Part shown: piece after piece, positions 8,917-59,728 of the stretch
How the letters are laid out: each line of letters begins with the position of its first letter
Position numbering within the stretch: position 1 is the stretch's first letter
Source of the DNA: Sipunculus nudus
Taxonomy: Eukaryota > Annelida > Sipuncula > Golfingiida > Sipunculidae
Length of the DNA: 64,000 nucleotides
Reading direction: 5' to 3'
NCBI GenBank assembly: GCA_026874595.1
Contig: CM049307.1
Location: 19,631,079-19,695,078, forward strand
The notes under the pieces: model-generated
What the model saw: the letters and a program-made list of their open reading frames with translations, nothing else
Told to the model about the DNA's origin: nothing
Databases searched by the model: none
Made by a program: the position numbers and the translations under genes

Positions 8917-8920
<4 letters not shown>

Positions 8921-8972
<52 letters not shown>
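8921..8972. repeat. (TA)n microsatellite
   Basis: Uninterrupted alternating TA of about 50 bases. Confidence 0.95.
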
Positions 8973-10071: not shown

Positions 10072-10101
10072 ATCCTATTGTGCACCCGAGGACAATAGGA
10101 T
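10072..10101. repeat. Short perfect hairpin
   Basis: ATCCTATTGT and its exact complement ACAATAGGAT are separated by ten bases. It could be a remnant of an inverted-repeat element. A C-run follows at 10122-10135. Confidence 0.7.
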
Positions 10102-10283
10102 CAGTGTCAGTCTTTCACATACCCCCCCCCCCCCCGCCCCGAATCGCACTGAGTATAATCTCGTAAAGTCTCGGCTTTTCAAACCAAGCCGTTAGCTTCA
10201 TTCTAACCACATTCACCTGATGATCGGGTCGCATCCCGTGAAACATACTGTTGTGAATTAACAGAGTTGTTTTTCTTCAGAGT

Positions 10284-10286
<3 letters not shown>

Positions 10287-10317
<31 letters not shown>
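10287..10317. repeat. (TA)n microsatellite
   Basis: Alternating TA of about 30 bases. Confidence 0.9.
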
Positions 10318-10318
<1 letters not shown>

Positions 10319-11179: not shown

Positions 11180-11216
11180 CACACACACACACATGCACAC
11201 ACTCATATATATATAT

Positions 11217-11264
<48 letters not shown>
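11180..11264. repeat. Compound (CA)/(TA)/(GA) microsatellite
   Basis: A short CA run, then TA, then a pure (GA)n from 11220 to 11264. The Arg-Glu frames across it are artefacts of the repeat. Confidence 0.95.
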
Positions 11265-11265
<1 letters not shown>

Positions 11266-16129: not shown

Positions 16130-16440
16130 TTCGACACGCAATTATGTGTATCCGCCAAATGGGTGTTTTTTACAGGACATGACTCCAAATTTATGGCATC
16201 AGTGATGCCAATTTAACTCCTAATACATGTGCAATATTCATAACAAACAGATCTACAAATGGAAACACCATGCCAAATTTCAGGCCTAGACATCAATCCG
16301 CTACTGAGGAAAATTGCATCAATGTATTCTTAACGGAACAGCTGGTAGCGCCGCCTGTCTGGTCTTCAACGAACCTATCCAAGACGGAAACCAAGCAAAA
16401 TTTCAGGCTGATACATTCATTCACTCCTGAGATATGAGCG

Positions 16441-20758: not shown

Positions 20759-20955
20759 TGACCTTATACTGCATAAAAAGAACTGCAGTTGGCGCCACCT
20801 GTCTTTGTTATAACGACATAGGTCAGCGAATAACTATGCCAGGTTTTAATAAGATCAGTCCAAGGGTCTCAGAGTTCTCCGGAAAAGAACGCGGCGGCGG
20901 CGGCGGAACAAGCGTGAAAACAGAGTATCCGTTAAACTGTTTTGGCGGATACGAT

Positions 20956-31218: not shown

Positions 31219-31454
31219 CTAGCTGATACAGCAACTTTTTCTACAGTTTGCAGGTGGTGAGTCAGAGGGATTCAGTATTTTTCGTCTATGTTTACCCCCT
31301 TGCGTGAGGCTGCGCATTCGGGCCCGAGTCTTATTTGCCATATAATAGGACTTGAGTGATGCCTTTAATGAGTTTGGGAGAGGTAACTGTTCAATGCCAT
31401 AGATGGTGGTCTGCTCCATTATGACTCGGCAACAGATCTCCTGTAAGCTCAGAA
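31219..31454 (-). CDS. rab40: Rab40 coding exon 6 (SOCS box, C terminus)
   Basis: Completes Val192, then encodes 77 residues and a TAG stop. It carries the BC box ([11 protein letters not shown]), the Cullin-5 box (LPLP with [12 protein letters not shown]) and the terminal CCIS. The acceptor is TTTCTTTTTCAG. Confidence 0.95.
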
Positions 31455-34400
31455 CTGAAAAAGAAACAGAATTAATTATCTATTTTTATGTATCAAACAC
31501 AGATGAAAAAGACTTACACTTTACACACTGTAACACTTGGTCCTGACTGAAATTAAAAATTTTTTTGGGTGCTAAATATGCAGTTTAAGAGTCAATTGGG
31601 AACTAATGGACTTTGGCCATTCCATCAATATAAACTGACATCGAACAATTACAACAAAACTACACTATATAACTCTTCTGCCACCAGGTACTTCATGCAT
31701 TCTGGTCTAGTTATGAATGTTTCCTGATTTTGTTGACTGTACTCAAGTCTAACATCTTTTTAATGAAAAATATAAAAGTTACAGGCCCCCTAAAAATTAG
31801 TCAAATTATTATTAAGTAAATCCTGCTGGACTTCATGCTTGTAACTGAAACTTTTACTGTTGCAGATGGTTGCTTCAAATTTTACATAAAGTGGTTTACG
31901 CTACTCAGGTTTCAATATAAATCTTCACATTTCTCTGATGAATAAATAAAATAAACTAGTGTGAACCACAATATTAAAACATGAAAAATAAAATATTGCA
32001 ATTTTAAAATAGTTTTCATGGTGTCATATATGTGGTAACCACACATTATATGTGACAAAATAAACATTATTTAACACATTATACTGTTGTAAAAACTGAT
32101 GTTCCACACCACCAACCTTTATCTGGACCTAGAACACACCTCAGACCATTCCGTTTCAGGGCAACGCGGGATAATTCAGCAAGAGATTCTGTTACATTAA
32201 AATCACACAGCGGGCTGACTTCAAAGAAAGCCATGTCATTTTTGATGGCATATTCCTCAGCATCAGCCTCGCTGACCTGCCGCTTGAAGGCCAAATGGAG
32301 ACGGTTACCAACAAGGATCTTTGGCACACCTGGAGCATGCTACAAGGTCAAATGAATTTGAAATATAACAGTGAATGTGAGGGATACCATGACTTGTGAA
32401 TGTGAGGGATACCATGACTTGTAAATGTGAGGGATACCATGACTTGATAAGAACTTGCTTCATGATTTTTAAGTGAAGAAACAATAGTACCAAATTTCAA
32501 CAAAATAACATAACATACACTGAAACAAAAAACTAAAAATATCACTTGATTTACAAGATCTTGTCTTTTATCCTTCTCTCTTAAATTTTAGCTTAATATG
32601 TCGACAGATTGTTACAAATGATATGAAAAATAATATCTAATATTAACTGAATAAACAATTCTGATGCTCTGAGCAATTTTTCCGTGACATCACTTACAGT
32701 GCAATGATTTATAATTTATTAAATAAAATCTACAAGGATTGTCTGTAAACGTACAACAAGTCATGTGTTGAAAATATGAATTATTTCCTTGTATCACTTT
32801 ACTGACTTTGTGATGATCCATTAGTTAATGTATGCATTAAATGTAATAATGAGTAAACAAGTAACAGAACTGGTATAACAGAAAATACATTTATATTTTT
32901 TCAAGCATCTGACCTAAAGTGAATGCCACAAAAAATATTTCAGATTCAATGGCTGATGTATTGAAGTGCTTTTTCATCCTTTGTCAGGAAGATCATGTCA
33001 TAAATGTGAAAGACTTTTTAGTCAAAACACCTCTAGATGACCAGCTTTTAATAATTCCTCTCTATTTACATAAAATTACAGTTGCACTTATTTTGACTTC
33101 AGCTTTTCATTTCCTCCGTCTGATATACAAGTAAAGGGATAGCCTACCTCCTCCACCTCTTTGTACCATCTGTCAATCCCGTCAAACGACCATTTATTAG
33201 TGATGTCATAAACAAGGAGGATGCCCTGCAAATAACAAGGGACCCATGGGTCACAGCACTCAGCTGAAGTTTGAAATTTTTACAAATGCAAAAATTGCAA
33301 AATATTCTATTGTAATGTTTTTCATATATATAAGCATATGAGAAGCTAAGAGGAAAGGGGCCCTCCTACTTGGTTATAGTACAGTTCTAAGTATATGATT
33401 GCAAAACTAATACTCTTACAAGACTGTCATGAAGAAAAACAGTAAAAGTTGTGAGATACTGTGATGCATATGAAAAATTTACAGATGGACAGACAAGCGG
33501 ATAGAATGGATAGAACTAATACCTTTATTTCACTTTCAAGGGAATAATGCATCAAGTTTATATTAAAGCCTTTTTTTTTGCATATCCACTTTTTCCAATA
33601 ATAGTTTTTATCAGATTCATTTTGTTTTATTAACAAGATTAATAATTTGTAATAAAAAATCTGAATATATAAGTTTAGATATCAGAAATCTAAGTTGCAA
33701 TCATTATTTATCCAGGGTGTAGCTCCTATCAGGTCATAATTAAGCATACACATATATTTTATTATTTTTAAATCACAAATGTTTAAACTGAATTTAAAAG
33801 AAAATAATGCCACAACATGGCATCTTCAAGATTATTTCTTGAATCACTATTAAAAAGTTTTGTACATTGGAATTTTCAGTGCATGCTTAATTTTTTTCTC
33901 CAAAATAAAAGATCAAGTAAATTTGATAAAACAAGTGACCTGTGGGTCATGACGCCTAGTTGACTGACATGTTGATAATTGATCATTGCACAGACAACTA
34001 ATTAAGATAGGTGGCATCATTTTTCATGCATATTAGCTTAAATTCATTAAGACCCATAAGCACAACAAATTTGATGACAATCCAACCAGCCTTTCATGAG
34101 GAATCTGGCAATTTGTGTGTATTTTGCATTATTTCTGGGGTGCTCAAACATACCCCAAAACTCTGAGAATATAGGTCACTGTGACCCAATTTCAAAATTC
34201 TGGGGAGAACTTTTGAGGAACTCTCAGGATGTCAAGTTAGAAGATTCTGGGCCCTAGTTTTAGTTATGATTTGTGCCCTACTTTGGTATCAAATTTTCAA
34301 TTATTCTGAGGGGTGTTTATAAGCCCCATCGGTCAGAAAATATGGGTAACAAATACCTAAATTCAGGTTTTCAAGGAGACTTTTCACAGATCTCCCTGTG

Positions 34401-37400
34401 TGTCAAGTTTGAAGATTCTAGGACCAATGGTTACAATTTGAGCCCTGTTAAGGGACAACCTCATCTTTGAAGGTCTCATAAAAAGAGAAAAAAAATATGT
34501 TAAAATTTTTTTTAAATTTAGGTAGAGCCACCAGTCCACAAGAACTGATGAAACACTCCATGATGAATATGCATGCAAAGAATCAGGGTGATCAATGCAA
34601 TAGTTGTTCAGATACTGGAGCTTTTGTATCAAATTCTTAGTTATTCTGGGAGGTGCTTCAAAGACCCATAGCTCAGAGGATATGAGTAACAGAAACCTAA
34701 TTTCAGGTTTCCATGGAGTTTTTTATGGACCTCCAATGATGTCAAGAAAGAAGATTCCAGGTCAAATAGTTGTGATTTGTGCCCTGTTAACAGATGACCG
34801 CATCTTTTAAGGCCTCAAAAATAGATAAAAAACAGTAAAAAATCGAAAAAAATACAGGTGGTGCCACAAGTCTGCAGAACCTGATGAAACACTCCATGAT
34901 CAATATCCATGCAAAGAATCAATTGTTAGTTGTTCAGATATTTGAGCTTTTGTATCAAATTTTTCATTATTCTGGGAAGGGGGGGGGGGGGTACTTCAGA
35001 GCCCCATAGCTTGAAGAAAATGGGCAACAGAGACCTAAATCCAGGGTTCCAAGGAGATATTTTGTGGACCTCTAAGGATGCAAAGTTAGAAGATTCCAGG
35101 TCCAGTGGTTACGATTTGTGCCTTGTTAACGGACAGACGGCCGGACGGACAGAGTGATCGCTATAGCTCAGATGACTTACAGTCAGCTGAATTAATAAAA
35201 ACATCTTTTCAAATAAAGAATATACACTGTTGGTTGAATGAAGGAAATAAAATATGATTGTGCTAATTAATATCTCAGCTATAATTTATTACTGGAATGA
35301 ATAGTCAATTTCACACCTGGTGAAGTTTTTACTCATCTTACGTAAGGAATTACTTATCTGATGAACATCCACACTTTCATAGCAATACACCACTTTGTGG
35401 ACACAATTAAATGTGCACTTTAATCATTGTAACTCTGGTGGTAGAATACAAGATCTAATTTGTAGCATAGCCTAGGATAAGAATGAATCAAATACAGAAA
35501 ATTATAACATTCATCTAGTTTATGCACCAGCTGGGAGAGCGGGGAAGGGGGAGTGCAGGGCAGAGGGGAAGCCTGCTAGTACTTGTGGCCAAGCTGAGCC
35601 AAGGCAAGCTGCCTGGAGAGGGTTACATAACACAAGTGAAGGCTGTACTACTAGGTGGGCTTGATGTAAACAACACTTGACATTGTGTATGAAAACTTAA
35701 ATAAAAGCTTCTCTTTCAATCAATTCCTTTGAATTTTCAGATTTCAGAAGATTAAATCCTTATGTATATATGCTGTAAAAATTAAATCAACAGTGTATAC
35801 AGGAAAAAATGTGCCATAGCCAAAGATGGACAAAATTTAAGGTATTGATTTTTTATTTTGACTAATAACTTAAAGAATTTGCAAAACTCATATCTAATTG
35901 TGGGTAAACAAATGAATCTTGATTAAAATAAGTTATATCCCTGAAAAAAGTCTCCAGCTTCAGTAATTCTTATGTTAAGTGAGTTAATATATTTCCTAAT
36001 TAAAAAATAACCGCATTTTATTTGGGCCCATAACTTCAGAACAATAAGAAATACTGACCTATTTTTTTTGGTACGTTCAAAGAAAATGTATGGAAGAATA
36101 TGAATACTAAATATGATCAAAAAAAGATAGGTGGTTTTGATATTAGGCAGCCTTTAAGAGTTACAATGGCTTTTTATGGAAAATGGAGGTTTTTCCTTAA
36201 TATTTCGAAGGAACAAAGCCCTAGTGACCCAATTTTCAGTATGGTAGGAGATTTTGGGGACATATAACTATATGCAAAATTTTTTTATTCATAGGTCCAA
36301 TGGTTTCAAAATGTGCCCTGTTAACAGATGGACGGCCAGACGAGGACAGGAAAAAAGGACCACAACTAGAGGTCAGATGACTTATAGTCAGCTGAACTCA
36401 AAAAGACTAGCATGTTGAATACTATATGTAAGTCAGGTTGAACCAATATTTACAAGACATAAAAGGAAAATCTAGAACTTACACTCAGTAGAATTACAAC
36501 AAAAAGGCATTATAATATTATTTTAATATAGTATATAAATCATGAAGCTCCTGAATTGGACATGCACAGATCAGTCTTAGTCTCCTCATATTTAAATCTC
36601 AATGTATCAACTAGCTATGTGTAAGTTGAAAAGAGCGTATGGTCTTAAGCCAGTGGACATTTTCAAGAAATTATTTTTAATCATTAAGTTACTTTATCTT
36701 CAGCATTAATGGATGGAAATTTTCATGTAATTACCACTATAATTTTATAACAAATCAATCATAGGGACTTTACCAGGACTTAAGGCATCCAAGTATAAAT
36801 TGTTAGGTAGCCTAGCCATTGAGTGACCTGAGCTGATCAGATGAACTTGAAATGTAATAATATTAAATTTGTGTTTTCAAAATTTCTCCCCTGGTATTAC
36901 CTGAGCTCCTCTTGAATATGACCTGAAGATAGTGCAGAACCTGCCTTGACCAGATGTGTCCCTGTGTGATAGTAAAAAATCTTTAGAGACTCAGAGCAGA
37001 ACAAAATCCATTCCACCATTAATTTACCTACTTCACAATTTGTCCCAAGGCAGTAATGAATGAATTACTAAATTAATGGAACCTAGAGGCTTATCCTGTG
37101 ATGAACTTGTTCTGTTTCCAGCTGCAAACTAGTTGTTGACAAAAGCAACAAGACAAAACGTATTAAAGTGGGAAAAATATGTGACACTAAATATGTAGGA
37201 CTAAGGTGGCCATTCTCCATGATACAGTTATGGTACATGTACAGAATTTTGTGAACATCCACATTACCATAGTTCTCTTAGAAAAGCTTTTATGTATTAA
37301 TCCTAAAGTGCACACAACTTTTTTTAACAAATATCAGCAATAGAACCAGAGGGCATTCAGCATATTTTATGTGAGGCAACCTCCAAGACACTGAAATAAT

Positions 37401-40400
37401 CAACTACAGATGAGAAAGTTCTGTGAACCTGGAATATAAAACAAGTGACCCATGGGTCATGACGCTCAGCTGACTGGGAAGAGATTCGCAAAAGGAAATT
37501 TTATCATCTGAATGGTAGTATATACCCATTCAACTGAAGCATCAAACAGATTAACCCACAGGCCAAGATTGTGTCTGCATTTATATATATTTAAAAAAAA
37601 GAGAAAAAATGTGTAAACTTTAAAAAAATACAGGTGGCTCCACCAGTCTGCAGAAACTAATAAAAACACTTCATGGTCAGTATACATGCAAAGAATCATG
37701 GTGATCTCTGCATTAATTGTTCAGATACTTCAGCTTTTGTATCAAATTTTCCATTATTCTGAGGGATACTTCAGAGTCCTATAGCTTGAAGGATATGGGA
37801 AACAGAGACCAAATTTCAGGTTTCCACAGACACTTTTCATGGGCCTCCTTGCATGACAAGAATGAAGATTCTAGGTCCAGTTGTTACTATTTGTACCCTG
37901 TTGACAGATAACCATCTTAAAAGGTCTCAAAAATAGAGAAAAAATTCGTAAAAATTTGAAAAAAATAGAGGTGTTGCACCCAGTCTGCAGAAACTGATGG
38001 AATACCTCATGATCAATATGTATGCAAAAAATCATGACCATCAGTGTTGTAGTTATTGAGATACTGCAGTTTTTGTATCAAATTTTTCATTATTCTGGGG
38101 GGTATTTTGGAGACATACAGCTTAAAGGATATGGGTAACAGAGACCTAATTTCATGTTTCCATGGAGACTTTTCATAGGTCTCTCATTGTGTCAAGAATG
38201 AAGATTCTAGGTCCAGTCCTTACAATTTGTGCCCTGTTAACAGATGTTCACATTTTTAAAGGTCTCAAAAATAGAGAAAACAATTCATAAAAAATCGAAA
38301 AATACAGGTGGCGCCACCAGTCTGCAGGAACTGATGGAACATCTCATGATTAATATGTATGCCAAAAATCATGACCATCAGTGATGTAGTTAATGAGATA
38401 TTGAAGTTTTTGTATGAAATTTTTGACTATTCTGGGGGGTACTTTGGGGCTCCATAGCTCGAAGGATTTGGGAAACAGAGACCTAATTTTTGGTTTCCCT
38501 AGAGACTTTTCATAGGTCTCTCAGTGTGTAAAGAATGAAGATTCTAGGTCCAGTCTTTATGATTTGTGCCTTGTTAACAGATGTTCACATTTTTAAAGGT
38601 CTCAAAAATAGAGAAAACAATTCGTAAAAAATCAAAAAATACAGGTGGCACCACCAGTCTGCAGGAACTGATGGAACATCTCACGATTAATATGTCTGGC
38701 AAAAATCATGACCATCAGTGATGTAGTTAATGAGATATTGAAGTTTTTGTATGAAATTTTTGACTATTCTGGGGGGTACTTTGGGGCCCCATAGCTCGGA
38801 GGATATGGGTAACAGAGACCTCATTTCTGGTTTCCAAGGAGATTTTTCATGGACCTCTCAGAAGGTCAAGTTACAAGTTTCTAGGTCCAGTGGTTACGAT
38901 TTGTGCCAGGTTAACGGACGGACGGACAGACAGACGGACAACGGACAAAGGATGATCGCTATAGCTCAGATGACTTACAGTCAGCTGAGCTAAAAAACGT
39001 TCATAAACATCTTAAAGTTTGTGATTGTTGGACAGTTTTATTCTGAATTTAATTGGGGGGTTTCAGTATAAACAGTCATGAAGCTTGAGAGACTAGATGT
39101 GTCGGTACGACACGAATGCCCCCGCCTGGGGCAAATTAGAAACATTTGTTAAATTTTGTAAAATTTTTTTAAGTTCAGGAGGTGTTGTATGGTCAAAAGT
39201 AGGTCAAGAAGGGCAAAATGCAAACTCGATCTGTAACGGGTCATTATCAAGGAACACACCAAAAATCAGGCCAGTATGCAGGCACTGTGAAAAAAAGTCC
39301 ATACATGAGCATTTTTCATAAAAAATTCTCTTTCATGAAATTTTCTATGTTCAGGATCTGTCATATGGTCAAAAATAGGTTAACTGGGATGAAACGCGAA
39401 CTTGACCTTTAAGTGGTCATTATGCGCCTACAGACCAACCATTGGGCCAGTATCTGTAAGCATTGTATTGTGAAACTAGAATATTAGCAAAAGCTGGTAT
39501 TCAGTTATAAATTTAAATTGGAGAGGTATGTACCATGTTTTATAACAATCCACCAAATGCTTCCTGAGAAATATCCCCCTAAGTTTTTTTTCTATACTAA
39601 GCTCTGTGACCTTGAAAAGTAGGTCAAGACCACCCATCTTTGAACCTGACCAAGATTTTGTAAATATGATGCAAAAGCACTGAAGTAATGAAGTTCTTTA
39701 GTTGAATACCTTTGGAGATATCCTGCACAAAGGCCAAAATTGAAAAATCCGATAAAATTTCATTAAAAAATCAGAAATTGCAGGTGACGCCACCAAAATT
39801 GTGCAGAACGTACAGACCATCAGTCCCAAAGATCATAGTAAGTTTTGTGAAAATCCACACAATGGTTCCTGAGATATAAGCTTCTGAGTGTTTTTCTATA
39901 ATCAGCTCTAAAATGTAGAAAAATGGGTCAAGGTCACCCATCTTAAAACTTGACTGAGATTTTATCGATATTTATCTTCACTGATGAAATAAAATTCCAA
40001 CGGTGAATCCTTTTAGAGATATCCCGCTCACAAGGTAAAAGTTAACAGATGCGGAACGGACAGACGGACATACGGACCACGACAGACAGATGGACGGATA
40101 GACGGACAGCTTGTGTGACGACAATAGCCCATCAGCCTATGAGCTGAGGGCTAAAAACGGCTGTACATGTACATTTGTCATAAAAATTAATTTTCATGAA
40201 ATTTTCTATTTTTAGGAGCCGTAAAACAATCAAAAGTAGGTCAACCGGGACGAAACGCGAACTCGATCTGTAACTGGTCATTATCTGCATACACACCAAA
40301 AATCAGGCCAATATCTGCAAGCATTGTGAAAAAAAGTCCGAACAGGTGTATTTGTCATGAAAATTTCTATTTTTCATGAAATTTTCTAAGTTAAGGAGCC

Positions 40401-43400
40401 ATAAAACGGTCAAAAGTAGGTCAACCTGGACGAAACGCAAACTCGATCTGTAACTGGTCATTATCTGCCCACACACCAAAAATCAGGCCAATATCTGCAG
40501 GCATTGCGAAAAAAAAGTCCGTACATGTGTATTTGTCATGAAAATTTCTATTTTTCATGAAATTTTCTAAGTTTAGGAGCCGTAAAACAGTCAAAAGTAG
40601 GTCAACTGGGACGAAACGTGAACTCGATCTGTAACTGGTCATTATCTGCCCACACACCAAAAATAAGGCCAATATCTGCAGGCATTGCGAAAAAAAGTCC
40701 GTACATGTGTATTTGTCATGAAAATTTCTATTTTTCATGAAATTTTCTAAGTTTAGGAGCCGTAAAACAGTCAAAAGTAGGTCAACCGGGACGAAACGCG
40801 AACTCGATCTGTAACTGGTCATTATCTGCCCACACACCAAAAATAAGGCCAATATCTGCAGGCATTGCGAAAAAAAGTCCGTACATGTGTATTTGTCATG
40901 AAAACTTCTATTTTTCATGAAATTTTCTAAGTTTAGGAGCCGTAAAACAGTCAAAAGTATGTCAACCGTGACGAAACGCGAACTCGATGTGTAACTGGTC
41001 ATTATCTGCCCACACACCAAAAATCAGGCTAATATCTGCAGGCATTGCGAAAAAAAGTCCGTACAACTGTTTTATTTCGGAAGGACGGAAGGACGGAATG
41101 ACGGACATGGGTAAAACTATATGCCCCGGCCACTTTGTGGCGGGGGCATAAAAAACAAACATGTCTCACAGAGCACTGCTGTATGATAAACTATTGATTA
41201 TTAGCTCCTGTCCCACTCATGGCAAAAGACAAAATTATGGTAAAATTAATTAGAAATCCACTTTCAACCGCAAAACATGATTAACCTGAAGGTAAGGACA
41301 TGCACATTTGTAACATTCCACAATCTGACCAAACAAAACTTCTATGACAAGTCTCCTCTTCTGAATTATAGTGGTAGATTCAATGATTAAAATAAATATT
41401 TTGTTTGCTGATGTCAGAACTGTATAACATCACTATAACTACAGTCATTTAAAGGTAGACAGGTCAGAACACGGTAGCCCCGAAGGAGTTCTGAACAAGC
41501 AGAGCCACATGGGCTCAATAAATCACTTAGTTTGCTCCTGAATACACTTCCTAAACACGAAACATGCTTGTGACAATATTAATGAAACAGCTGTCACATA
41601 AGTAGTCTATACATACAAACAAGCCAATAAAGATCACTGAAAAATGACCAAGAGCTTAAAGGAAACTTACCACAGCTGCAGTTTAACTCTCTTCCCATCT
41701 AGTAATATAGTGGTGGTCTTATAATCAACCCCTGAAAGAAGAACCAAGAATTAGTACATCAGTTAATAGGCTTCAGAATACCATGAGGATGATATTTAAC
41801 ATCCACAATAATCAATTGATCTAATACCTGAACACAATAACCACAATAATATCAAACATTACACAACTAGGAGAACTTCCAGATGATGTCAAACATCACA
41901 AAAAAATACTTTGATATCATCATTATGATGTTAAACTCCAAGAAACAGTACCAGATAACTTTAATACTAGCAACTATCTTAAACATCACTAAACATCACC
42001 AGATTATGACATCACATCAGTAACATCACAAAACTAGAACTGACTGGTACCCAAAGGCATGGCCATGGATTTTAGATTGGTCTGATATTTAAGACCACAA
42101 ATCATCTTCAAGGGACCAGTCTTTAAAAATATCTCCACAATGTCTCTGAGGGTTATTGAGATAATTCATGTAAAAGGAATTCTAGGATTGCTCTCTTGCA
42201 GCCATATTGTAATTTTTCAATAGCGCACATTCCCTCATGGGCATCAATCTTTTGTAAAATCTTCACAGCTAATTGCTTAAATGATTCTTAAGATAGTGTG
42301 TGTGAAAGCAATTCCAAGACCATTGCCAGGCAGCCACTGTATTTCAAACATCTCTTAAATAGACAAGTGAACAACCTCTTATGGGCACATCCATCTGAAG
42401 TTGAGAAAGATTGAATGTTCTTTTTTTCAAGAACTGTGTGCAAAAAAAAATCACAGACCATCTTATGGTGGACATTTTGGATTTTGGCCAGGTCTGTAAT
42501 TCTATGGGGCTGTAAACTTAATAAGCACCTGTGAATTTGAAAAAAAAGAAGATCAAATGTATTCTCTTTTGGATGCTATGAATGGAAGAGAGTGCCAATG
42601 ATGGATGGATGGAAGGACAGACATGGCCATCACTACAGCCTAAGTATAGGGCACCACTTTTCAAGCTGGGGCTAATTAACTTTTATCAGTATGATGGTAC
42701 ACATTACAAAACAGCAGCAGAACCTAGAGCACTGATAGCATGATATGATACATAACATATCATTACAACACTTTGATATCATTAGGAATTCAATGTTACT
42801 AGCAATCATCAGATACCAACAGTACCAGCATAATTTCAAACATCCAAAACATCACAAGCTTACCTGTAACCATTAAACATGATGAGTCATTACAAAACAT
42901 CATACTGGCTCAGGTGGGTCAGACATATATGTAAAATAAACGAGTAACTGTAAACATTATTTAATAAATCACTCCTTTAATAAAAATTTAAGGACAGACA
43001 CAGGGATATTTTTATGTTTAAAACATCAGGTCATGAAATATGAGATGTGGAGTGCTCTTGAGCAAGTGGAGTCCAATCAGTGTTTATGGAGCACAAAATA
43101 ATCTTCATGCCAGGCAAACCTAGAAGTCACACTTTAACAAAAATAATTTCACATTCATCACACAGGATCTGCCATGAAAAAAAAAAACAGAGATAGGTCT
43201 CTATTAACATCTACCAAATGTTACTCACATAACTACATCATTAACACATGGAAGGACATGCACTATGGTTACTGAACCATGTTGGTGCTACCTGTAAATA
43301 GTTGTAATGTCAGCTGGTTGGTTAAAGGTCAATATTATAACTCTATTTGGTGGGTCCATATATTCTTTTGAAACTAATAAATAACTATTAGTGTTTCTTT

Positions 43401-46400
43401 GTGCTCAGAATGATTCACTAATTGTGAGTTCTGCTGCTGGTAAATGAATTTGAATATGCATGACTATGGAAGGGTATGTAATGAACCTTGTATCTCTGCA
43501 GCGTACACCAGGCTAAGCAAAAAGATGCCTCATTTACAAGTCCACGAGGCATGGTTTTCTCTTCATTACGCCAGGGAAATAAGGGACGGCATTCTCATTA
43601 GGCATCACCTCTGTCACATGCTGACTTGACAACCTGCCAACAACACATCTCATTCTGACCCAAACCCTGTTACACCACATGTGTACAGAAGTGAGCATGA
43701 CAGCTTTACCAGTAATAACTGCCTGAGCATTTATAATACCCGGTATATGTGGGTGTGTAATATATCATTCACTTAGCATGTTCCAGAACACAATCTTTGT
43801 AATTATACATTAACAGGTATGGAACAATATTTATATTTAAAATAGCTGTAACACAAAGTGTATGTTTGTGTAATATATATGTAGATCAAAATTTTAATCT
43901 GGGCTGGCCCAGTTTAAAACTGGTCTGGCCCATATTGGAATTTTGATCTGGGCCGGTCCAAATCAAAATTTTGATCTGGGCTGGCCCAGTTTTAAATTGG
44001 GCCAGATTCTAATCTGGGCCTAGACATATATATATTACACATATGTCACACTGCCAAAATAAATATGATATATCCACAAACTATACAAAAACAAATGATT
44101 CTCTTCCATCCTGCCTGAAATTGCAAGCATTATATTCCTTCATGAAACCTAGGTAAGAAAGAGCATAACAAGCAATGTATTGGTTGAAATAGTATGTAGG
44201 AGAGAGTATTAATTAACAACTTACATGATTCCTGGAAATACAAGACAAAAATTCTTGAGAAATACAAATAGTTTAAACTTTACGTATGCCAATGTTATGA
44301 TTATCAATAATTACACATATCAGTAGGATAATAAATTCTGTGATGATCTTTCAAGGAAAATTTTAAACAGGAATTTTGGGTAACCTGATAATATATACTG
44401 AAATTCTAGGTCATTGATTTCTTAATTAACTTTTAAGTAAACAGTGCATTTTCAAATTTTTCAGCCCATTGTTTGTATTGGTCAGGATACACCTTGCAAT
44501 TTTATATCAAAGTCAGATGTCTAGATACATTAAAGAGATTAACTATCCTAATTTCTCATACAATCTGAAAGTCAGGAAAAACTACTTGATAGTTTGTGTC
44601 TACTGTTCAACAAAATTTTTAAAACTATGATATACTTGTCTTATTATTCATTCATTATGATGTGGGATGTGGATATGACAGAAAGAATCCTGAAAATGGC
44701 AAATTGTTCCACTTGAACAAAAGAAGATGGATAATGATTGTGACAATGACATATAGACCAACACGATGTGATAATCCAAGCTCTAACTTTGTCTGCTATT
44801 CTGCTTATTCAGACAGATCGAATGGTGAATGCATTATGCCAAGGTTTTGTTTGCAAACATCTATTATACAGGACTTGGCTGCACTCTTTTTGCACACATA
44901 GTCATGAATGACATGTGAATGATGTGCTATCCTCATTGTTAAACACATGACCAGAGCCAGACACAGTCCTGAGCCAACAATTAATTAAATCCAATCTAAT
45001 AATACTTTACAAGTTTGAATTCTTTTTAATTTTAAGCTAAATAATAAAAAAAAATATAAATTTTTTTTCCCGGTTTGATCAGTTAACACATAAATATGCT
45101 AGGTCTCCACTTTTGACTAGAAGTAGCATTGTTACTTATAATTGGATACAGCTGGCATTCAATCAAACTGGCTTTTTTTAGTATTATGTCTGAGTGTCAA
45201 CTTTGATTGACAGGGCATACAACTTACAAACCATTCACCCTACAACACAGTGTTTACAATGTAAAAAACAGTCATGATTGTAATATCATGATATTATAAT
45301 ATAGGAAGGAGTGAGCACTCCAAAATCAAAGCTAGCAGTACAAGTTGCATGACAGAGTACTGACTAGGATGCAATTAATGTTTGAATAAAGCTTGAATCC
45401 TACAAGGCAAATGAAAAATAGCATGTTTAAGCACAGGCCTGCAGTCAGTGAAAACAGGATGCCTGTCCATTGATTCGTTTAATATTGTTCACCAACGATA
45501 CATCATAATGCCAGTGTTAATGAAATTTCATGTGGTATTTTGCCAGATGTAAGGTAAACTAGACATTTCTTGGCACCGCAGGTGCCAGAGTATCCCCAGA
45601 CATAGTAGGCCCCCACCCCCTTTATAAATAGACCCCCATTTTTAGCAGCATATACTGACACTTGGCATATTTATTGTTTCTTTCATCTAACAATCCACAA
45701 TCTTGTTGAAGATGTTGGTCCTGTGACCTTGATCTTTTTAAAGATGTGTCCTGTGACCTTGACCTTTGACCTCATGACCCCAAAATCAATTCTGGTCTTG
45801 CTTTTCCAATGGGACATATGGAAGTTAAGTTTGAAATCTAAACATCAATAAAGCAGGAATTCTCACCCAGAAACTAATTTTTGGACAGATGGCTCCTGTG
45901 ACCTTCACCTTTGGCATTGTGACCTCAAAATTGATAGTGTTCTTCCTCTCTTGGCAGGAGAACTATATGTGCAAGATGAAAGATCTGAGATGAAATGTTT
46001 GGCTGAAAATGCATCCACATCTTTTTAAAGATGTGTCCTGTGACCTTGACCTTTGACCTCATGACCCCAAAATCAATTTGGGTCTTGATTTTCCAATAGG
46101 ACATATACAAGTCAAGTTTTAAATCCATACATCAATAAAAGAAGGAATTATCATCCAGAAACTAATTTTTGGACAGATGGCTCCTGTGACCTTTACCATT
46201 GACCTCAAAATTGATAGGGGTCTTCCACTCTTGGCAAGTGAACTATATGTGCAAGATGAAAGATCTGAGATAAAATGTTTGGCTGAAAATGCATCCACAA
46301 TCTTTTTAAAGAGGTTTCCTGTGACCTTGACCTTTGACCTCATGACCCCAAAATCAATTCAGGTCTTGCTTTCCCAATGGGACATATACAAGTCAAGTTT

Positions 46401-49400
46401 GAAATCCATACATCAATAAAAGCAGGAATAATCATCCAGAAACTAAATTTTGGACGGATTGCTCCTGTGACCTTCACCTTTGACCTTGTGACCTCAAAAT
46501 TGATAGGGGTCTTCCATTCTCGGCAGGTGAACTATATGTGCAAGATGAAAGATCTGAGATGAATTGTTTGGCTGAAAATGCATCCACAATCTTTTTAAAG
46601 AGGTTTCCTGTGACCTTGACCTTTGACCTCATGACCCCAAAATCAATTCAGGTCTTGCTTTTCCAATGGGTCAAATACAAGTCGAGTTTGAAATCCATAC
46701 ATCAATAAAAGAAGGAATTATCATCCAGAAACTAATTTTTGGACAGATGGCTCCTGTGACCTTCACCTTTGACCTTGTGACCTCAAAATTGATAGGGTTC
46801 TTCCTCTCTTGGCAGGTGAACTATATGTGCAAGATGAAAGATCTGAGATGAAATGTTTGGCTGAAAATGCATCCACATCTTTTTAAAGGTGTGTCCTGTG
46901 ACCTTGACCTTTGACCTCATAACCTCAAAATCAATTTGGGTCTTGCTTTCCCAATTGGACATATATAAGTCAAGTTTGAAATCCATACATCAATAAAAGC
47001 AGGAATTATTATCCAGAAACTAATTTTTGGACGGATGGCTCCTGTGACCTTCACCTTTGACCTTGTGACCTCAAAATTGATAGGGGTCTTCCATTCTCGG
47101 CAGGTGAACTATATGTGCAAGATGAAAGATCTGAGATGAATTGTTTGGCTGAAAATGCATCCACAATCTTTTTAAAGAAGTTTCCTGTGACCTTGACCTT
47201 TGACCTCATGACCCCAAAATCAATTAGGGTTATGCTTTTCCAATGGGACATATACAAGTCAAGTTTGAAATCCATACATCAATAAAAGCAGGAATTATCA
47301 TCCAGAAACTAATTTTTTAGCAGATGGCTCCTGTGACCTTCACTTTTGACCTTGTGACCTCAAAACTGATAGGGGTCTTCCTCTATTGGCAGATGACTTA
47401 CATGTGCAAGATGAAAGGTCTGAGATGAAATGTTTGGCTTAAAATGCATCCACAGTATCTTTTAAAATGCCCGTCCTGTGACCTTGACCTTTGACCTCAT
47501 GACCCAAAAATCAATTGGAGTCTTGCTTTTTCAATGGGACATATATAAGTCAAGTTTAAAATAAATACATCAATAAAAGCAGGAATTATCATCCAGAAAC
47601 TAATTTTTGGACAGATGGCTCCTGTGACCTTCACCTTTGACCTTGTGACCTCAAAATTGATAGGGTTCTTCCTCTCTTGGCAGGTGAACTATATGTGCAA
47701 GATGAAAGACCTGAGATGAAATGTTTGGCTGAAAATGCATCCACATCTTTTTAAAGGTGTGTCCTGTGACCTTGACCTTTGACCTCATAACCTCAAAATC
47801 AATTTGGGTCTTGCTTTCCCAATTAGACATATATAAGTCAAGTTTGAAATCCATACATCAATAAAAGCAGGAATTATTATCCAGAAACTAATTTTTGGAC
47901 GGATGGCTCCTGTGACCTTCACCTTTGACCTTGTGACCTCAAAATTGATAGGGGTCTTCCATTCTCGGCAGGTGAACTATATGTGCAAGATGAAAGATCT
48001 GAGATGAATTGTTTGGCTGAAAATGCATCCACAATCTTTTTAAAGAAGTTTCCTGTGACCTTGACCTTTGACCTCATGACCCCAAAATCAATTTGGGTTA
48101 TGCTTTTCCAATGGGACATATACAAGTCAAGTTTGAAATCCATACATCAATAAAAGCAGGAATTATCATCCAGAAACTAATTTTTTAGCAGATGGCTCCT
48201 GTGACCTTCACTTTTGACCTTGTGACCTCAAAACTGATAGGGGTCTTCCTCTATTGGCAGATGACTTACATGTGCAAGATGAAAGGTCTGAGATGAAATG
48301 TTTGGCTTAAAATGCATCCACAGTATCTTTTAAAATGCCCGTCCTGTGACCTTGACCTTTGACCTCATGACCAAAAAATCAATTGGAGTCTTGCTTTTTC
48401 AATGGGACATATATAAGTCAAGTTTAAAATAAATACATCAATAAAAGCAGGAATTATCATCCAGAAACTAATTTTTGGACAGATAGCTCCTGTGGCCTTG
48501 ACCTTTGACCTTGTGACCCCAAAATTTATATGGATCATCCACTATTGGCAAGTGAGCTATATATTAAAGATGGAAGACCTAGGATGAAAGTTTGGCTTAA
48601 AATGCATCCACAGTATCTTTTAAAATGCCAGTCCAGTGACCTTGACCTTTGACCTCATGACCCTAGAACCTATAGGGTTCTTACTTTAGTGGTGGGCCAT
48701 ACATAAGTCATGTTTGAAATCCATATGGCTATCAACACTGGAGATATCATAAGAGGTGTGTGATTTTCACCATATATGGCAATATTCAAGGTCAAGGCCA
48801 CTATCATAGGAAAGGTCATGACCCCAATTTAAATAAACATCATCCCATAACCCATACCTATGTATATGCATAATATAAAAGAAATCTGTCCATTAGTTTT
48901 TGACTTACAATGCTCACAGTACTGTAAGGTTGCAATTTTGGGGGTATTAAACGGCACGAAAACAAGTAAAGAATAATAGGTGGCGCCACCAGTTTCTGGA
49001 ACATGACAACCCTATCCATGATCTTCCATCAACTTGATTTTGGGATAAATCCATGCAAGATTTCTTGAGATATTAAAGAATTTGTGTGATTTTCCCCAAA
49101 ATTGGACCTATTCAAGGTCAAGGACACTCTCTTAGTAAAGGTCATGACCTCATTTTAGATAGGCTTCGTCCTCTCACCCATATCTATACATATACCAAAT
49201 TTGGTAAAGTTCCGTGAAATATTTTTTGGGTTATCGCGCCAACAAGATTTATATGCGGCGGCGGCGGCGGCGGCGGGACCGGTATGAAAACATAGTATCC
49301 CCCGACTTTGTCTGGGGATACAATAATGATTGCACAAAGAGGTCCTCGTATTTTTAGGATGTCAGTCTATTTAGTTTCTGTTACAATTAACTCCAATAGT

Positions 49401-52400
49401 AAACCTGTGGAAGATGCTGCTAGTGACCTGGCGCCAGCAACCATGCAAGTCAGGTTTAACACTTAGGTGCAAGGTTCTTATAAGATTTTGCAAAGTAACA
49501 CCAGACTACTCTGAACTGGGGAATCCTCGCTCCTCAGATTATAACTCCATGGTTACCCCAAGCTCAATATAAAAGTTAATATCGTAACAAATTTGGCAAT
49601 ACCTGCACTGTGTTTCTAACAAGAGGGACAGTTGCTTGATGGATGATAGCTATTCCTATCTGTACCATACATGTTATCCAAACTAAAAGCAGCATCAGAA
49701 TAAAGGCATCTGTGATTGATAGTTAACAATATACACAGTCACTGGAAAAAACACAACATCAGTACCAGGGTATAACAGAATACCAATATGCTCTATGGTA
49801 AATTTACTAATAATTACAGCCCAGGCAAGATTGTGGGAAAAAAAGACTAACATCACAATAATGGCCGAGTCAAAATAACTTAGCACTGATGATGTACACA
49901 CTTGTACAGGATATGTGTAGTTTTTTTCTTACATATTAACTGCAAGATACAGTATGACAGCAAATATCTCTCTGTTATCTACACAATTATGCCTCCATAA
50001 TTGAGCTTTAAAGTGAATAAGCTCTTGCACCATCCACCTGCCTCTATCATCTATGTATATATATATTTACTTATACTGTGGTTGGCTTTTTGTGTGAGAG
50101 GGTTTCAAATTCACGATATTCACAAAGGGGAAATTATTGTGAAAATAAAACCTTCATAAATACAAGGGACCCATGGGTCACGGCGCTCAGCTGATCGTGA
50201 TTGGACTATAAATGTTTCTCCACTGTGATACTATATTGAGTCGAGAAAGCTTATGAATATCATGGACATATTGGGCTATTATAAAGGAATGTAATATGTG
50301 AGTAAATGATAAATGAAATTACCTGACTGATGGATTAATAGAGTAAAATATAGTGGTTTATTTTTATTTATTTAGGAGGGGTTGAAAATTGTGATATATT
50401 TGAGCAAATATGAATGCAATGACAGCAGTAATAAGCAGTAGTAGAATGATGATAAGGCTATTTGTTGAAGGATCTAAAGTGTATGGTAGTCTGCAAGCTT
50501 TCAATTTGACAGATATGATGTTATGATTAACTATGCTGATGAAGTGATTTATGAATTTGTGACTGAATGACACAATATCTCTTTAGTTTTGACAAGGTAC
50601 ATTATTGTGATGCCCACTATTTCTACATATTAAACAAAATTGACATAATTTCTGGCATGTACATAGGTACCTATGGACGAATAGTTATACAAAATATTAA
50701 AGTATGAATATATCTGATTCATCTTGTTCTTGCTTACTGAGGCTGACTTTGGGATGGGGTTCGGAGAAGGGAAAAGTGAGGGCAGCACGAAGGTGGATGT
50801 AGAAATATTCTATTGTAATGTTTTTCATTTATATAAGAATATGAAAAGCTAAGAGGAAAGGGGCCCTCCTACTTGGTTATAGTAAAGTTCTAAATATATG
50901 ATTGCAAACTAATACTCTGACAAGACTGTCATGAAGAAAAACAGTAAAAGTTTTGAGATACTGTAATGTATGAAAATTTACAGATGGACAGGCCAGTGGA
51001 AAGAATGGACTAATACCTTTATTTCACTTTCAAGGGAATAATGCATTTAAGTTTATATATAAGCCTATTTTTTTAGCATATCCACTTTTTCCATTAAGAA
51101 GTTTTTATCTGAATCATTTTTTTTATTTAGAAGTTTTATAAATTTTTAATAAAAAAACTGAAAATATAAGTTAAAATATTAAAATTGTTGCAAAAGTTGC
51201 AATCATTATATATCCAGAGTGTAGCTCATGTTGGGTCATATTATGCATACACATATATTTTATTATTTTTAAATCATAAATGTTTAAACTGAATTTTAAA
51301 AAAATAATGCCACAACGTGGCATCTACAAGAATATTCCTTGAATCACTATTAAAAAGTTTTGCACACTGGAGTTTTCAGTACATGCTTAATTTTATTCAC
51401 CAAAATAAAATAAAAGATTCAGTAAATTTGATCAAATAAAACATCTTTTCAAATAAAGTATACACACTGTTGGTTGAATGAGGGACAAACAATATCATTG
51501 TGCTAATTACTATCCCAGTTTTAATTTATTACTGGAATTAATAGTCAATGTCACACCTAGTGAAGTTTTTACTCTTCTGAAGTAAGGAATTACTTATCTG
51601 ATGAACATCCACACTTTCATAGCAATACACCACTTTGTGTACACAATTAAATGTACACTTTAATCATTGTAACCCTGGTGGTACAATACAAAATCTAAAA
51701 TGTAGTGTAAATTTCCTGATTTTTTTAAAAATTGCATTATATTTTGGCCCATAACTTCAAAATAATACCCAATACTTACCTAATTTTTGGTATGTTCATA
51801 GAAAATGTATGAAAGAATGTGAATACTAAATATGATCAAAAACAGATCAGTGGTTTTGATATTAGGCAGCCTTGAAGTGTAACAATGGCTTTTTTTATGG
51901 AAAACGGAGGTTTTTCCTTAATATCTTGAAGGAACAAAGTCCTAATGATCTAATTTTCGGTAGGAGATTTTGGGGACATCTAAAATTATGCCAACAGCCT
52001 GGGGAGCATAGAGATGTGCACTAAATGACCTACAGTCATCAAAGTGGACTGCTTGACAATGTAAGGGTATACAACAAGAGCCTCTAAAAAAATTCAATAA
52101 CTAACCTAATTTTGCAGCTTTTATTTTCAAATTTCAGATTTTAACAGATTAAATCCTTATATGTACATGCTGTGAAAATTAAATCCACAGTACTTACAGG
52201 AAAAAAACGTGCCGTGGCCAAAGTTGGGCAAAATTTAAGGTACCAATTTTATATTTTTGCCAATATTAAAAAAAATTTAACAGATTTTGATCTAATTTTT
52301 GGTATACAATTAAATTTTGAATAATTAAAGTTGTATTACTGAAAAAAAGTCCCTACCTTTAACACTTTTGGTCTTAAGTGACCAAATATATTCCTGATTT

Positions 52401-55400
52401 TTTTACAAACTCCATTATGGTTGGGCCCATAACTTTTTTAAATTAAACAATACTGACTTAATTTCTGGCATGTACATAGGAACTATATAGAGGAATATTT
52501 ATGGTAAATATGAAGAAAACCAGATGAGGGGTTTTGATATTAGGCAGTCCTGAAGAGTAAAAATAGATTTCTAATAAAAAATTGAGGTTTTTCTTTAATA
52601 TTTCAAAGGAACGTAGTCCTATTGACCCAATTTTCGGCATGGTAGGAGATTTTGGGGACATCTAACTTAGTGCCGAATTTCAGATTCGTAGGTCCAACGG
52701 TGTCGAAACGTGCCAGTCTTACGGACGGACATCCAGACGGACGGACAGACGACAGACAATGGACCACGACTATAGCTCAGATGACTTATAGTCAGCTGAG
52801 CTAAAAATGCAATATGTGAAGAGTAATTCATAATATAGCTTCAATGGAATCTAACAAGTTTTGTGTTGGTAAAGCGTCATTATCAGCATGTATAAATTTC
52901 TTATTATCTGTAAATCAAAGATTGATAATTTGAATAATATCAATTCATGGGTGCCACTAATTTGTGTGAATAATTTCCACCAATTCGATGTTCCCTTATT
53001 GACTTATACAATATTTAAGATATGTGCTTGCATATTATATAACTGACATAATAATAATTATAATAATGTATACATTGTGTAAGTTACTGTATATGAAATC
53101 TTCACAAAACACTGAAGAAGAGAAAATCACTCATTTTTAACCTCACATTTATGAAGCCAACAACAAAATATATGTCAAGAGCTTCTAGAGGTTGTGTCCT
53201 GCATGCTTTAACTAGAATACGGGTAGTCAACAAGCGACTACCTGTATCCGCCTAAATCAAAGAGGTACGTGTGAAGTGGTAATAGGATATAGAGGTAATG
53301 GGAAAACCTTGTGTGGTAGATGACATATTACATGAAAGATATAGATTAGTTGGTGTGGTATTGTTATGATGTAAAGGCTGAATTACCTGGAGGGAGGGAG
53401 ATAGCTGGCGCCACCTGTCATATAAAAAAAAATATATACAAGATGTATACACGTGCAAAATTTCATGTGAACAAGTCCAACCTCTGCAGAGATATGCATG
53501 ATTTTATCCCAAGGCAGAAAAACAGATGGACGCTGTGCATAAACAGTTGCAAGTGCGGCCACCAGTTTTGGGTATAATAAAGGGCTATGTTAGACCAATA
53601 CACATGCAAAATTTTAGGCTGATATGTCAAACCAGTCCTGAGATATTTGCATGGTGGTCTGGAGCATAAACGAGCAGGTAGGTGGCGCCACCTGTCACAA
53701 AAATGGAAAAACTATCCAAGATGAATAAACACGTAAAATTTTAGCCCAATAGGCCAAATGAGTCCTGAGATATCAGCATGGATGTCTGCACTGCAAATGC
53801 ATAGGTAGGTGGCGCCACCTTTCATATCAACAAAAAATCTATCCAAGATGTATAAATGTGCAAAATTTCAGGAGAATAAGTCCACTGCAGAGATATGCAT
53901 GATTTTATCTAAAGGCAGATAAACAGATGGCTGCTGTGCAAAAACGGTTGCAGGTGGCGCCACCAGTTCTGGATATGTTAGTGCTATGTAAGACCTCTAC
54001 ATATGCAAAACTTCAGGCTGATCCGTCAAACCAGTCCTGAGATATGGGGGTTTATGTGTGAATACAGACGCACAGATGGACGCAGAGGAAAGGTCAGAGG
54101 TCAAAATAAAATCAGGCGCAGCAGTTTACATGTGACCCAAACATAATCCAGGGTTTCGTAAAATTCCGCCCAACCGTTACGGAGGAGTTCTCCGGACACC
54201 TACGCTGCAGGGGAGGGGGCCTGAAAACACAGTATCTGCAAAACTCTGTTTTGGCGGATACAATTACTGTCATTTGCATTGCCCAAAATTTTCTTGATAA
54301 GATAAAATTTGACAAGAAAAATATTCTGCTGACAAGAAATCGACAAGTCTTGAGACAAGATATATTATCTCTTAATAAAATACTTTTTGTCATAAGATGT
54401 TTTTATCTTATGGAAAGAAATTTATTTATGGTATGTGCAAGCACATGCATAATGTGGATTGATGTGTGATTATATTTCTTGCCATAGGATATCTTTTCTG
54501 ATAGCAAGAACACTTACTTTATCAGGAGAAAAAAAAAAATTGTTAAGAAAAATTTTCTTTTCCATAATAAGAAAACTTTCTTGCCCCACTCCCACAAAAA
54601 TTTCCTTGCCAAAAGATATTTTTTTCTTTTAATAAGAAATTATAGGTAAAGGGGCAAGAAAATTTATCTTTTCAAACAAATATTTTTGGCAGTGTAATGT
54701 TATGATATTATGCAAATATTTGGTAAAAGGAAGCTTGAACAGCTCAAAATCATATTTTTGCCCCTGGTCTGCAGAAAAGATTACAGTGACCTTATTTTGG
54801 ATTCCCAAAAAGACTTTACAAGGAACTCCCTGGATGCTTAATAAGAAGTTTTTACATCCAAATGTTGTTCCCAATTGTGCCCATCTGACTTTCAGGATGC
54901 TCAAATCATGTTCGATAACATAGATTGCAGAATATAGGTAACAGTGACGTAATTTCAGATGTCCTAGGAGACTTTAAATGACCTCCCTTTTCATCAGGTA
55001 TGAGGTTTCTAGACCCATGTGTGAAGATTTGTGCCTGGTTTGACCTTATGGGGGTAAAAATCATGTTTTTGGCCTGTAGCTTGCAGAATATAGGTCACCA
55101 TGACTTAGTCTTCCAAGAAGATTTGTCCAGGACCTTCCTTGATATTAAGTAAAGTTTCTGGGTGCAATATAACTGATTTATACAATTTTTTTATTTCAGG
55201 GTATTCTAAATTGTGTTTTACCCTTGCTTATAAAAATTTGGTCACAGTGACTTTTTTTCAGATTTCAAAAGGGTTTTAACCAGGAACTCCCTTGAAATTT
55301 TGTTAGAACTGGTTCTAGGTCCAACTATTATGATTTGTGCCCATCAAACTTTCACAGTGTTCAAATCATGTGCTTTCACAGAACTCACAGAATATAATAT

Positions 55401-57359: not shown

Positions 57360-57427
57360 ACCGATACTGGCAGCCACAATGGCCAGCACTGACAGCAGCC
57401 CTGCCCCTCTGGGCTGAACAGTGTGTG

Positions 57428-57490
57428 TCAAACGGGCTCCACCCGACCAGTCACAGGCCCCGACACTTCAGAGCCCCCGGCCGCCATCAT
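57428..57490 (-). CDS. Candidate upstream ORF in the Rab40 leader (20 codons)
   Basis: Two adjacent ATGs (57490 and 57487 downwards) open a 20-residue frame in good context (the second is ATG-ATGG). It ends at a TGA 68 bases before the Rab40 ATG. It matters only if transcription starts upstream of it, which is not shown. The surrounding sequence is GC-rich, as expected near a promoter. Confidence 0.35.
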
Positions 57491-59465: not shown

Positions 59466-59728
59466 GGTAGCCATATGACATTTCAGGACAGTAGCAGGTA
59501 GCCATATGACCAGTTTAGGACAGTAGCAGGTAGCCATATGACAGTTCAGGACAGTAGCAGGTAGCCATATGACCAGTTCAGGACAGTAGCAGGTAGCCAT
59601 ATGACCAGTTAAGGACAGTAGCAGGTAGCCATATGACCAGTTCAGGACAGTAGCAGGTAGCCATATGACCAGTTCAGGACAGTTGCAGGTAGCCATATGA
59701 CCAGTTCAGGACAATAGCAGGTAGCCAT
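59466..59728. repeat. 32-bp minisatellite, left block
   Basis: About eight copies of a unit with consensus AGGACAGTAGCAGGTAGCCA then TATGACCAGTTC. The unit length is not a multiple of three, so the minus-strand open frame across it is a repeat artefact. Confidence 0.95.

Follow-up and report, generated by a model that had tools for sequence, protein, structure and literature searches.

The genome of Sipunculus nudus contains, within a 64,000-nucleotide stretch (C2:19631079-19695078, hereafter the window), four repeat families, A, B, C and D (RC-A to RC-D), which differ in sequence, share one terminal plan and all point the same way. The locus thus raises the question to which class of mobile element the four families belong, and what gives them a common direction. 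The families are very probably non-autonomous Helentrons (HINEs) that depend for their movement on Helentron-type OTU/Rep/PIF1/endonuclease proteins supplied in trans. Locally, the HINE copies sampled in this 1.43-Gb genome share one orientation, and in the few genes tested it is that of transcription. For the anatomical analysis the sequence was read directly over positions 37001-46000 and 48400-54700 of the window, with motifs located by script, and the published HINE convention was applied, by which all four elements of the window are on the minus strand.

The inverted pairs, palindromes, repeat bodies and simple-sequence tracts of the four families were all found in the window as an earlier reading of the sequence (the original prediction) had given them. 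On the minus strand they match, in all four families, the order published for HINE/DINE-1 elements, consisting from 5′ to 3′ of a subterminal inverted repeat (subTIR), a short inverted repeat (IR) complementary to the subTIR, a GTCY/GTCC-type microsatellite, central repeats, a 3′ subTIR and a palindrome near the end, with insertion at TT (PMC4067079, PMC7492417, according to the text available of both). Family A spans positions 37441-38992, with the 5′ end at 38991-38992 and the 3′ end at 37441, in agreement with 11 RF and 17 LF listed copies. Its 5′ subTIR and IR (38963-38991) form a hairpin with an 8-bp stem, one mismatch, a 5-bp stem and a 3-base loop, followed by a GTCC/GTCT tract (38914-38950), central tandem repeats with a period of 337 (37624-38915), the 3′ subTIR (37464-37476) and the terminal palindrome GACCCATGGGTC (37447-37458), after which the minus strand reads ACTTGTT. 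Family B (39092-41149) starts at 41149 with its subTIR/IR hairpin (41121-41149) and ends with the palindrome GTGTCGGTACGACAC (39099-39113) and CTAGT (39092-39096), as aligned in 31 RF rows (30 loci and the window). Family C (45558-49321), with a body of period 289 and a GGC tract, has its 5′ end at 49321, the hairpin at 49295-49321, the palindrome TGGCACC-3-GGTGCCA at 45571-45587 and the terminal CTAGT at 45558-45562. In family D (53211-54261) the 5′ end is at 54261, the hairpin at 54232-54261, the palindrome GGTAGTC-7-GACTACC, with a 7-base loop, at 53222-53242 and CTAGT at 53211-53215; another D copy has an empty site, described below.

The subterminal inverted repeats are about 11-15 bp long, the pairs being GCTCAGCTGACTG (37464) and CAGTCAGCTGAGC (38978) in A, ATGCCCCCGCC (39116) and GGCGGGGGCAT (41139) in B, GTATCCCCAGAC (45590) and GTCTGGGGATAC (49310) in C, and, with one mismatch, GTATCCGCCTAAA (53244) and TTTTGGCGGATAC (54249) in D. 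An IR of the DINE-1 type lies near the 5′ subTIR at all four left ends of the window, and a palindrome lies beyond each 3′ subTIR. When folded as single strands, seven of the eight end sequences of the window copies beat shuffled sequences (z -2.9 to -5.6), the exception being the A palindrome (z -0.55). Each left end folds into one hairpin. The hairpins of A, B and C have a common geometry of eight paired bases, one mismatch, three to five paired bases and a three-base loop; in D the outer stem is five bases long and is followed by a mismatch and an inner stem with a bulge.

It is evident from this comparison that the original prediction had read the elements backwards. What it regarded as an additional 5′ palindrome corresponds to the 3′ terminal palindrome of HINE/DINE-1 elements, and its 3′ hairpin, with an arm complementary to the 5′ repeat, corresponds to the 5′ subTIR with its IR; since both are part of the anatomy described in PMC4067079 and PMC7492417, the novelty claimed for them fails. 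A palindrome is present in all four families, with a sequence that varies and a stem that is kept, and the open reading frame (ORF) of a Helentron bounded at one end (see below) runs in the direction that had been assumed. However, the published anatomy already accommodates both structures, and the CT[A/T]G that follows the palindrome resembles the CTRR of Helitron 3′ ends. That the palindrome represents an unrecognised Helentron signal at the 5′ end, besides a subTIR and a 3′ hairpin, is thus very improbable. Families A to D are new members of the established HINE kind, of which the terminal plan was already known.

To fix the boundaries of the elements, copies were searched genome-wide and their ends aligned, most copies being retrieved with patterns that fix the subTIR bases. 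Compound right-end patterns occur (forward plus reverse strand) at 8889+8747 places for A, 1538+1616 for B, 1696+1650 for C and 3476+3380 for D, i.e., 3,154 to 17,636 places per end signature, whereas the identical patterns reversed, which served as controls, match at 0/0, 0/1, 0/0 and 0/1 places per strand, respectively. The bare A subTIR is found at 10782+10983 places, against 2/1 for its control. With 0 or 1 control matches per strand for the compound patterns, the end patterns of the window cannot be attributed to chance. The aligned left ends consist of Ts followed by the subTIR, a loop and the IR; three or more Ts precede most A and B left ends, and two precede those of C and most of D. 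The right ends consist of the subTIR, a few bases, the palindrome and then CT[A/T]G-T, the next base being T or C. This terminus, which is absent from the original prediction, is common to all four families, with 11/11 right ends in A (by eye), 28/31 in B, 20/21 in C and 25/25 in D. CTAG ends most B, C and D copies, and CTTG is found in 9 of the 11 A right ends. In 84 rows, the base after the terminus is T 80 times and C 4 times, three A rows being one base out of register.

The target site is seen most directly in a D copy that is nested in another repeat with a paralogous empty site (L049 versus L065/L111), where gtaaTT/gttttaag has become gtaaTT/GTATCCGCC...CTAG/TTgttttaag. At this single empty site, which concerns family D only, there is no target duplication beyond TT, and hence none of the kind typical of another transposon class that the original prediction had named as evidence to the contrary. 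The TT target of HINEs is further reflected in the T or C after the right ends and the Ts before most left ends. TT on either flank of the filled site would also be left by cut-and-paste miniature inverted-repeat transposable elements (MITEs), as which Pearl elements were formerly regarded, with inverted repeats and duplication of a TT/AA target. Insertion within T/T, as published for HINEs, can however leave TT on both sides as well, and the inverted repeats here are subterminal and asymmetric, one lying within a hairpin and the other being followed by a palindrome. A cut-and-paste MITE was therefore rejected, the ends being asymmetric rather than symmetric terminal inverted repeats and the flanks of the one empty site sharing TT only, and we consider this origin extremely improbable. 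A canonical Helitron (Helitron1) has a 5′ TC, A^T insertion and no terminal inverted repeats, whereas the 5′ end consists here of Ts followed by a subTIR.

A Helentron coding element is present in the same genome. At least 143 matches to Helitron_like_N were found, and none of 14 control genomes is positive. One ORF of 2,235 aa on contig C11, of which 1,932 aa were scanned in two pieces, contains OTU, Helitron_like_N, PIF1 and Exo_endo_phos domains, i.e., the Helentron set, and its locus is 99.2% identical to a locus on contig C7 over 13.9 kb. At the gene-3′ end of this ORF lies a HINE-type left end, TT-GCTTGCCGGAAATC-TTC-GATTTCCGCAAGC, followed by a GTCC-like tract. As the ORF adjoins the left end by its 3′ end, its coding direction is from right end to left end. 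A reversed ORF orientation, with the Rep ORF in minus orientation, has already been reported for Helentron-Da-40 of D. ananassae (PMC4067079, in the text available), and also for other species. In the C11 copy, one of two, that left end is adjoined head-to-tail by a right end from its own family, which has a palindrome and CTTGTT. This Helentron, bounded at one end, has subTIRs that differ from those of families A to D and is probably not their direct partner, and no coding element with A-D subTIRs, as expected of a direct autonomous partner, was found; in 30 Helitron_like_N loci a search for A-D ends gave one B left end, pointing away from Rep. Of the Rep/helicase element with the same termini that the original prediction suggested looking for, the end design was thus encountered, but not the A-D termini themselves. 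Downstream of the Helentron on C11 (L115/L069/L012), family ends are arranged head-to-tail as LF-AACAA-RF, as expected of rolling-circle read-through or of insertion beside an end.

The Helentron-like class that had been proposed is well supported by the anatomy, the TT target, the empty site and a Rep/PIF1/endonuclease Helentron of like end design in the same genome. The four families were also compared with known systems, for each of which the published text was available in part. Cg_HINE of Crassostrea gigas (PMC7492417) and bivalve Pearl elements share with families A to D the 5′ subTIR with its IR, the GTCY/GTCC microsatellite, the tandem-repeat body, the 3′ subTIR with its palindrome, a T-rich/TT target without target-site duplication, and the occurrence of several families with unrelated bodies. 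In contrast to the strand-polarised copies sampled here, the oyster elements are reported to integrate in both orientations; moreover, the main text of PMC7492417 contains no word beginning with CTAG, whereas the four families described here share CT[A/T]G-T. They differ from Cg_HINE and Pearl also in that the bodies of A to D have a core, GGTGGCGCCACC, in common. DINE-1/INE-1 and HINE-Mo (PMC4067079) have similar subTIRs, a 3′ stem-loop and a preference for TT, and in DINE-1 the 5′ subTIR is accompanied by an IR at a distance of 3-22 bp, but their sequences are unlike those of the present families. A CTAG 3′ end is reported for a Phytophthora proto-Helentron, an element of Helitron structure, with no mention of one for HINEs in the published text available. 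Helitron2/FoHeli (PMC5148889) has asymmetric inverted repeats, in some cases with hairpins at both ends, and its target TTTT^T or C resembles the T or C after the right ends here, as does the Helentron TT. Unlike the Helentron ORF of this genome, which has an Exo_endo_phos domain, Helitron2 lacks an endonuclease, and the left ends of C and most of those of D have only two Ts before them.

The common direction of the four families in the window can be related to their position, as all of them lie within introns of what looks like one gene. This Rab40-like gene (31219-57464, minus strand) comprises a SOCS box exon (31219-31476, E 9.1e-8), a Ras-family exon (32079-32336, E 9e-8) and a Rab-like N-terminal exon (57174-57464), which has no Pfam match and Rab27A (E 3.3e-5) as its best sequence match in the Protein Data Bank; both the name and the joining of the three exons into one gene are probable rather than certain. 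All eight HINE segments between the exons are in sense orientation, i.e., A to D, with A and B counted apart, an A-ended HINE with a different body (A2, 50162-52803, minus strand) and three older segments. Older A-type HINE sequence on the minus strand occupies 33241-36402, with a right end at 33241 and fragments at 33300-33966, 34281-35465 and 35728-36402.

A similar relation is found in other genes. Twenty kinesin-domain genes were picked by gap size, their exons being joined by strand and domain order, so that the gene models are inferred and some gaps span unfound exons, and 500 bases were taken at two points of a large inter-exon gap in each gene. HINE sequence is present in 11 of the resulting 40 samples, from 10 genes on nine contigs, and 10 of these 11 fragments are sense. 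The sense fragments are drawn from A, A2, B, C and D, and, via the weakest match only, from E, a fifth family met in the retrieved loci. Counted per gene, with the tied gene dropped and the gene of the window added, 10 of 10 are sense (two-sided p 0.002); if the weak match is left out, the count is 9 of 9 (p 0.004).

Uniformity of strand extends over larger distances on contig C1. Orientation was counted for 100 places per family, the first ones listed and all on this contig, so that the counts cover 400 of about 31,000 exact-pattern places; the listed places reach to 3.9 Mb for A, to 14 Mb for D and to 27-28 Mb for B and C. Among pairs of different families within 30 kb, 191 of 207 are on the same strand, compared to maxima of 139 upon label permutation within families and 158 upon circular shifts, which preserve each family's own runs (2,000 runs each). 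The same-strand fraction falls with distance, from 0.936 at 2-10 kb (47 pairs) and 0.914 at 10-30 kb (151 pairs) to 0.752 at 30-100 kb (432 pairs), 0.625 at 100-300 kb (1,039 pairs) and 0.484 at 3-10 Mb (20,818 pairs), and its limit near zero distance is about 0.93-1. At C1:64043-1169108 all 68 listed HINE copies, from all four families, are on the minus strand, forming a block of 1.1 Mb. This may be a replication domain, a unistrand piRNA cluster, a series of genes with one orientation or a single giant transcription unit. When the first 1.2 Mb of C1 is excluded, the pairs within 30 kb still agree in 105 of 121 cases, and beyond 4 Mb in 60 of 69; the fitted decay length is 149 kb with the first-1.2-Mb block and 47 kb without it.

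Our first guess was that orientation reflects the direction of the replication fork, with insertion into single-stranded DNA of the lagging strand as in IS200/IS605, a precedent for a single-strand transposon (PMC5371812, in the part available). The size of the uniform block, which exceeds that of an ordinary gene, would suit this explanation, but the decay length of about 47 kb outside the block is nearer to gene size. It was the intron test that led us to demote it, as 10 of 11 fragments on nine contigs follow the gene strand, which is above the expectation from fork co-orientation alone. Fork direction is thus an unlikely cause.

A generic orientation effect on all repeats is ruled out by a tRNA-like short interspersed element (SINE) found in the retrieved loci, which does not agree with the HINEs in strand. 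With up to two mismatches allowed, this SINE has 5,855 places (control 8), from which 100 listed exact copies were used, with 37 in the HINE range and 30 having a HINE within 100 kb. The SINE has the strand of its nearest HINE in 9 of these 30 cases; when HINEs themselves are compared with the closest HINE from a different family, the strands agree in 287 of 340. Two SINEs less than 60 kb apart have the same strand in 13 of 15 pairs, some of which are probably local duplicates. Other candidate controls were less abundant: a tRNA B-box pattern, tried as a SINE control, gave only 927 sites, which we take to be mostly tRNA genes, and two motifs, one of the Tc1 type (101 sites, control 48) and one from reverse transcriptase (1,275 sites, control 176), were too sparse to serve as an orientation control. 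As a separate observation, the SINE strand is opposite to that of the nearest HINE in 21 of 30 cases within 100 kb, and the two repeat classes may be oppositely polarised on C1. Fragments of the same SINE are found on the minus strand of the window at 6761-6889 and 4457-4557.

Orientation could also result from selection, if insertion were random and antisense intronic copies were lost for their poly(A) or splice signals, as has been proposed for human intronic repeats (PMC3517506, in the text available). In family C, AATAAA occurs 13 times antisense versus once sense, in D three times versus none, and in A2 there are 11 antisense versus 4 sense ATTAAA motifs. Such asymmetry of AATAAA (sense/antisense) is not seen in A (0/1), B (1/1), E (0/0) or A2 (9/6), and AATAAA and ATTAAA of A2 combined amount to 17 antisense versus 13 sense; nonetheless A, A2 and B share the sense bias in introns. 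Furthermore, a concordance of about 0.93-1 near zero distance allows for few randomly oriented intergenic copies. Purging selection is for these reasons a doubtful explanation. As antisense poly(A) signals hardly explain A, B, E and A2, or a short-distance concordance near 1, insertion into single-stranded non-template DNA is favoured.

Our best guess is that insertion into the non-template strand of transcribed DNA accounts for the orientation. In such a mechanism the element would be copied as a single strand, with the 5′ hairpin of subTIR and IR as the initiation end and the 3′ palindrome with CTAG as the termination end. This single strand would be joined to a TT that transcription leaves exposed on the non-template strand, and each copy would thereby point along the gene that it enters. 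The model would fit a single-strand rolling-circle intermediate, for which IS200/IS605 may serve as a replication-coupled precedent, the strand of the element reporting there the strand that was single-stranded at insertion (PMC5371812, within the text available). IS200/IS605 differ in being bacterial, with unrelated ends and coupling to the replication fork, whereas the correlate here is the gene strand. Eukaryotic rolling-circle elements of the Helentron type in general may enter a transcription bubble or R-loop as a single strand that is joined to the non-template strand. If the sample of 400 copies and 11 genes is representative, nearly all of the roughly 31,000 copies would then point along the local transcription unit, and together they would form a fossil map of the direction of germline transcription. 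This reading remains tentative, and we put its probability at about 0.42.

Several observations weigh against it. The link between orientation and genes consists of 10 kinesin-domain genes and one more, and 10 of the 20 sampled genes gave no HINE sequence. The gene on C12 has one antisense fragment (L155), the only one among the 11, and one sense fragment (L135). Another match (C2, L123) is weak, extends over 25-35 bases and is the only match to family E; without it 9 of 10 fragments are sense. Two left-end matches by motif only were left uncounted, one sense-like (C15) and one antisense-like (C13b). The strand domains are known from C1 alone, and the 1.1-Mb block is far longer than an ordinary gene. 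In the window, two adjacent A-type fragments, at 16443-17114 on the plus strand, the sole plus-strand segment among the listed window HINE segments, and at 17673-18291 on the minus strand, oppose each other. Finally, a splice-donor proxy on C1 agrees with HINE strand in only 35 of 58 cases (p 0.15). The 9-mer used for this purpose has 15,332 sites versus 12,946 for its control, and collapsing tandem clusters reduced 100 listed sites to 74; the weak agreement is as expected if most such sites are chance matches. In 39 C1 loci inspected by eye (ORFs of at least 45 aa, G+C of at least 0.42, HINE-masked) no clear host exon was seen. No report of strand domains or of a sense bias of Helitron/Helentron elements was found in the open-access literature, outside of which most subscription papers lie.

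The families had been described as unrelated, and their sequences indeed differ. Yet GGTGGCGCCACC, or a form with one mismatch, is present in every body from A to D, at positions 37633, 38307, 38644, 39783, 48979, 53404, 53681, 53808 and 53953 of the window, and likewise in family E. A GAGATA-type motif often lies further along from this core, which is common to otherwise unlike satellite units. In addition, the left ends of C and D share GTATCC..GATACTRTGTTTTCA, which has a GGC tract beside it in the window copy of C and in two other D-type left ends, but not in the window copy of D. The similarity between A and A2 is confined to the ends, with 116 bases on the left and 27 on the right, and the A2 body contains no GGTGGCGCCACC within two mismatches. 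A D-type left-end fragment is located at 20872-20958 (minus strand).

Some further features were observed. After A and D right ends at L004, L008, L092, L096 and L102 the same sequence, TGTGTTGTGTGCACCC.., is found, which may be a preferred target repeat or part of a composite element. Inspection by eye showed the nuclear-receptor half-site TGACCT/AGGTCA repeatedly in the C body (45732-48725), for example within TGACCTTGACCTTTGACCTCATGACC, and AGGTCAA in B. Outside the HINE segments, a 32-bp satellite, GGTAGCCATATGACCAGTTCAGGACAGTAGCA, at 59466-59776 and 61630-63997 flanks a segment that has inverted TCGGAAGTCGGAAGCCT-type repeats at its borders and may be a DNA transposon that carries or has invaded the array.

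If the orientation holds genome-wide, the genomic insertions would provide a clue to the target state needed by a eukaryotic rolling-circle element; to our knowledge there is no earlier such clue. The question of the target state would then be testable by computation in any annotated genome rich in HINEs, and in unannotated genomes the HINE strand could serve as a cheap marker of gene direction.

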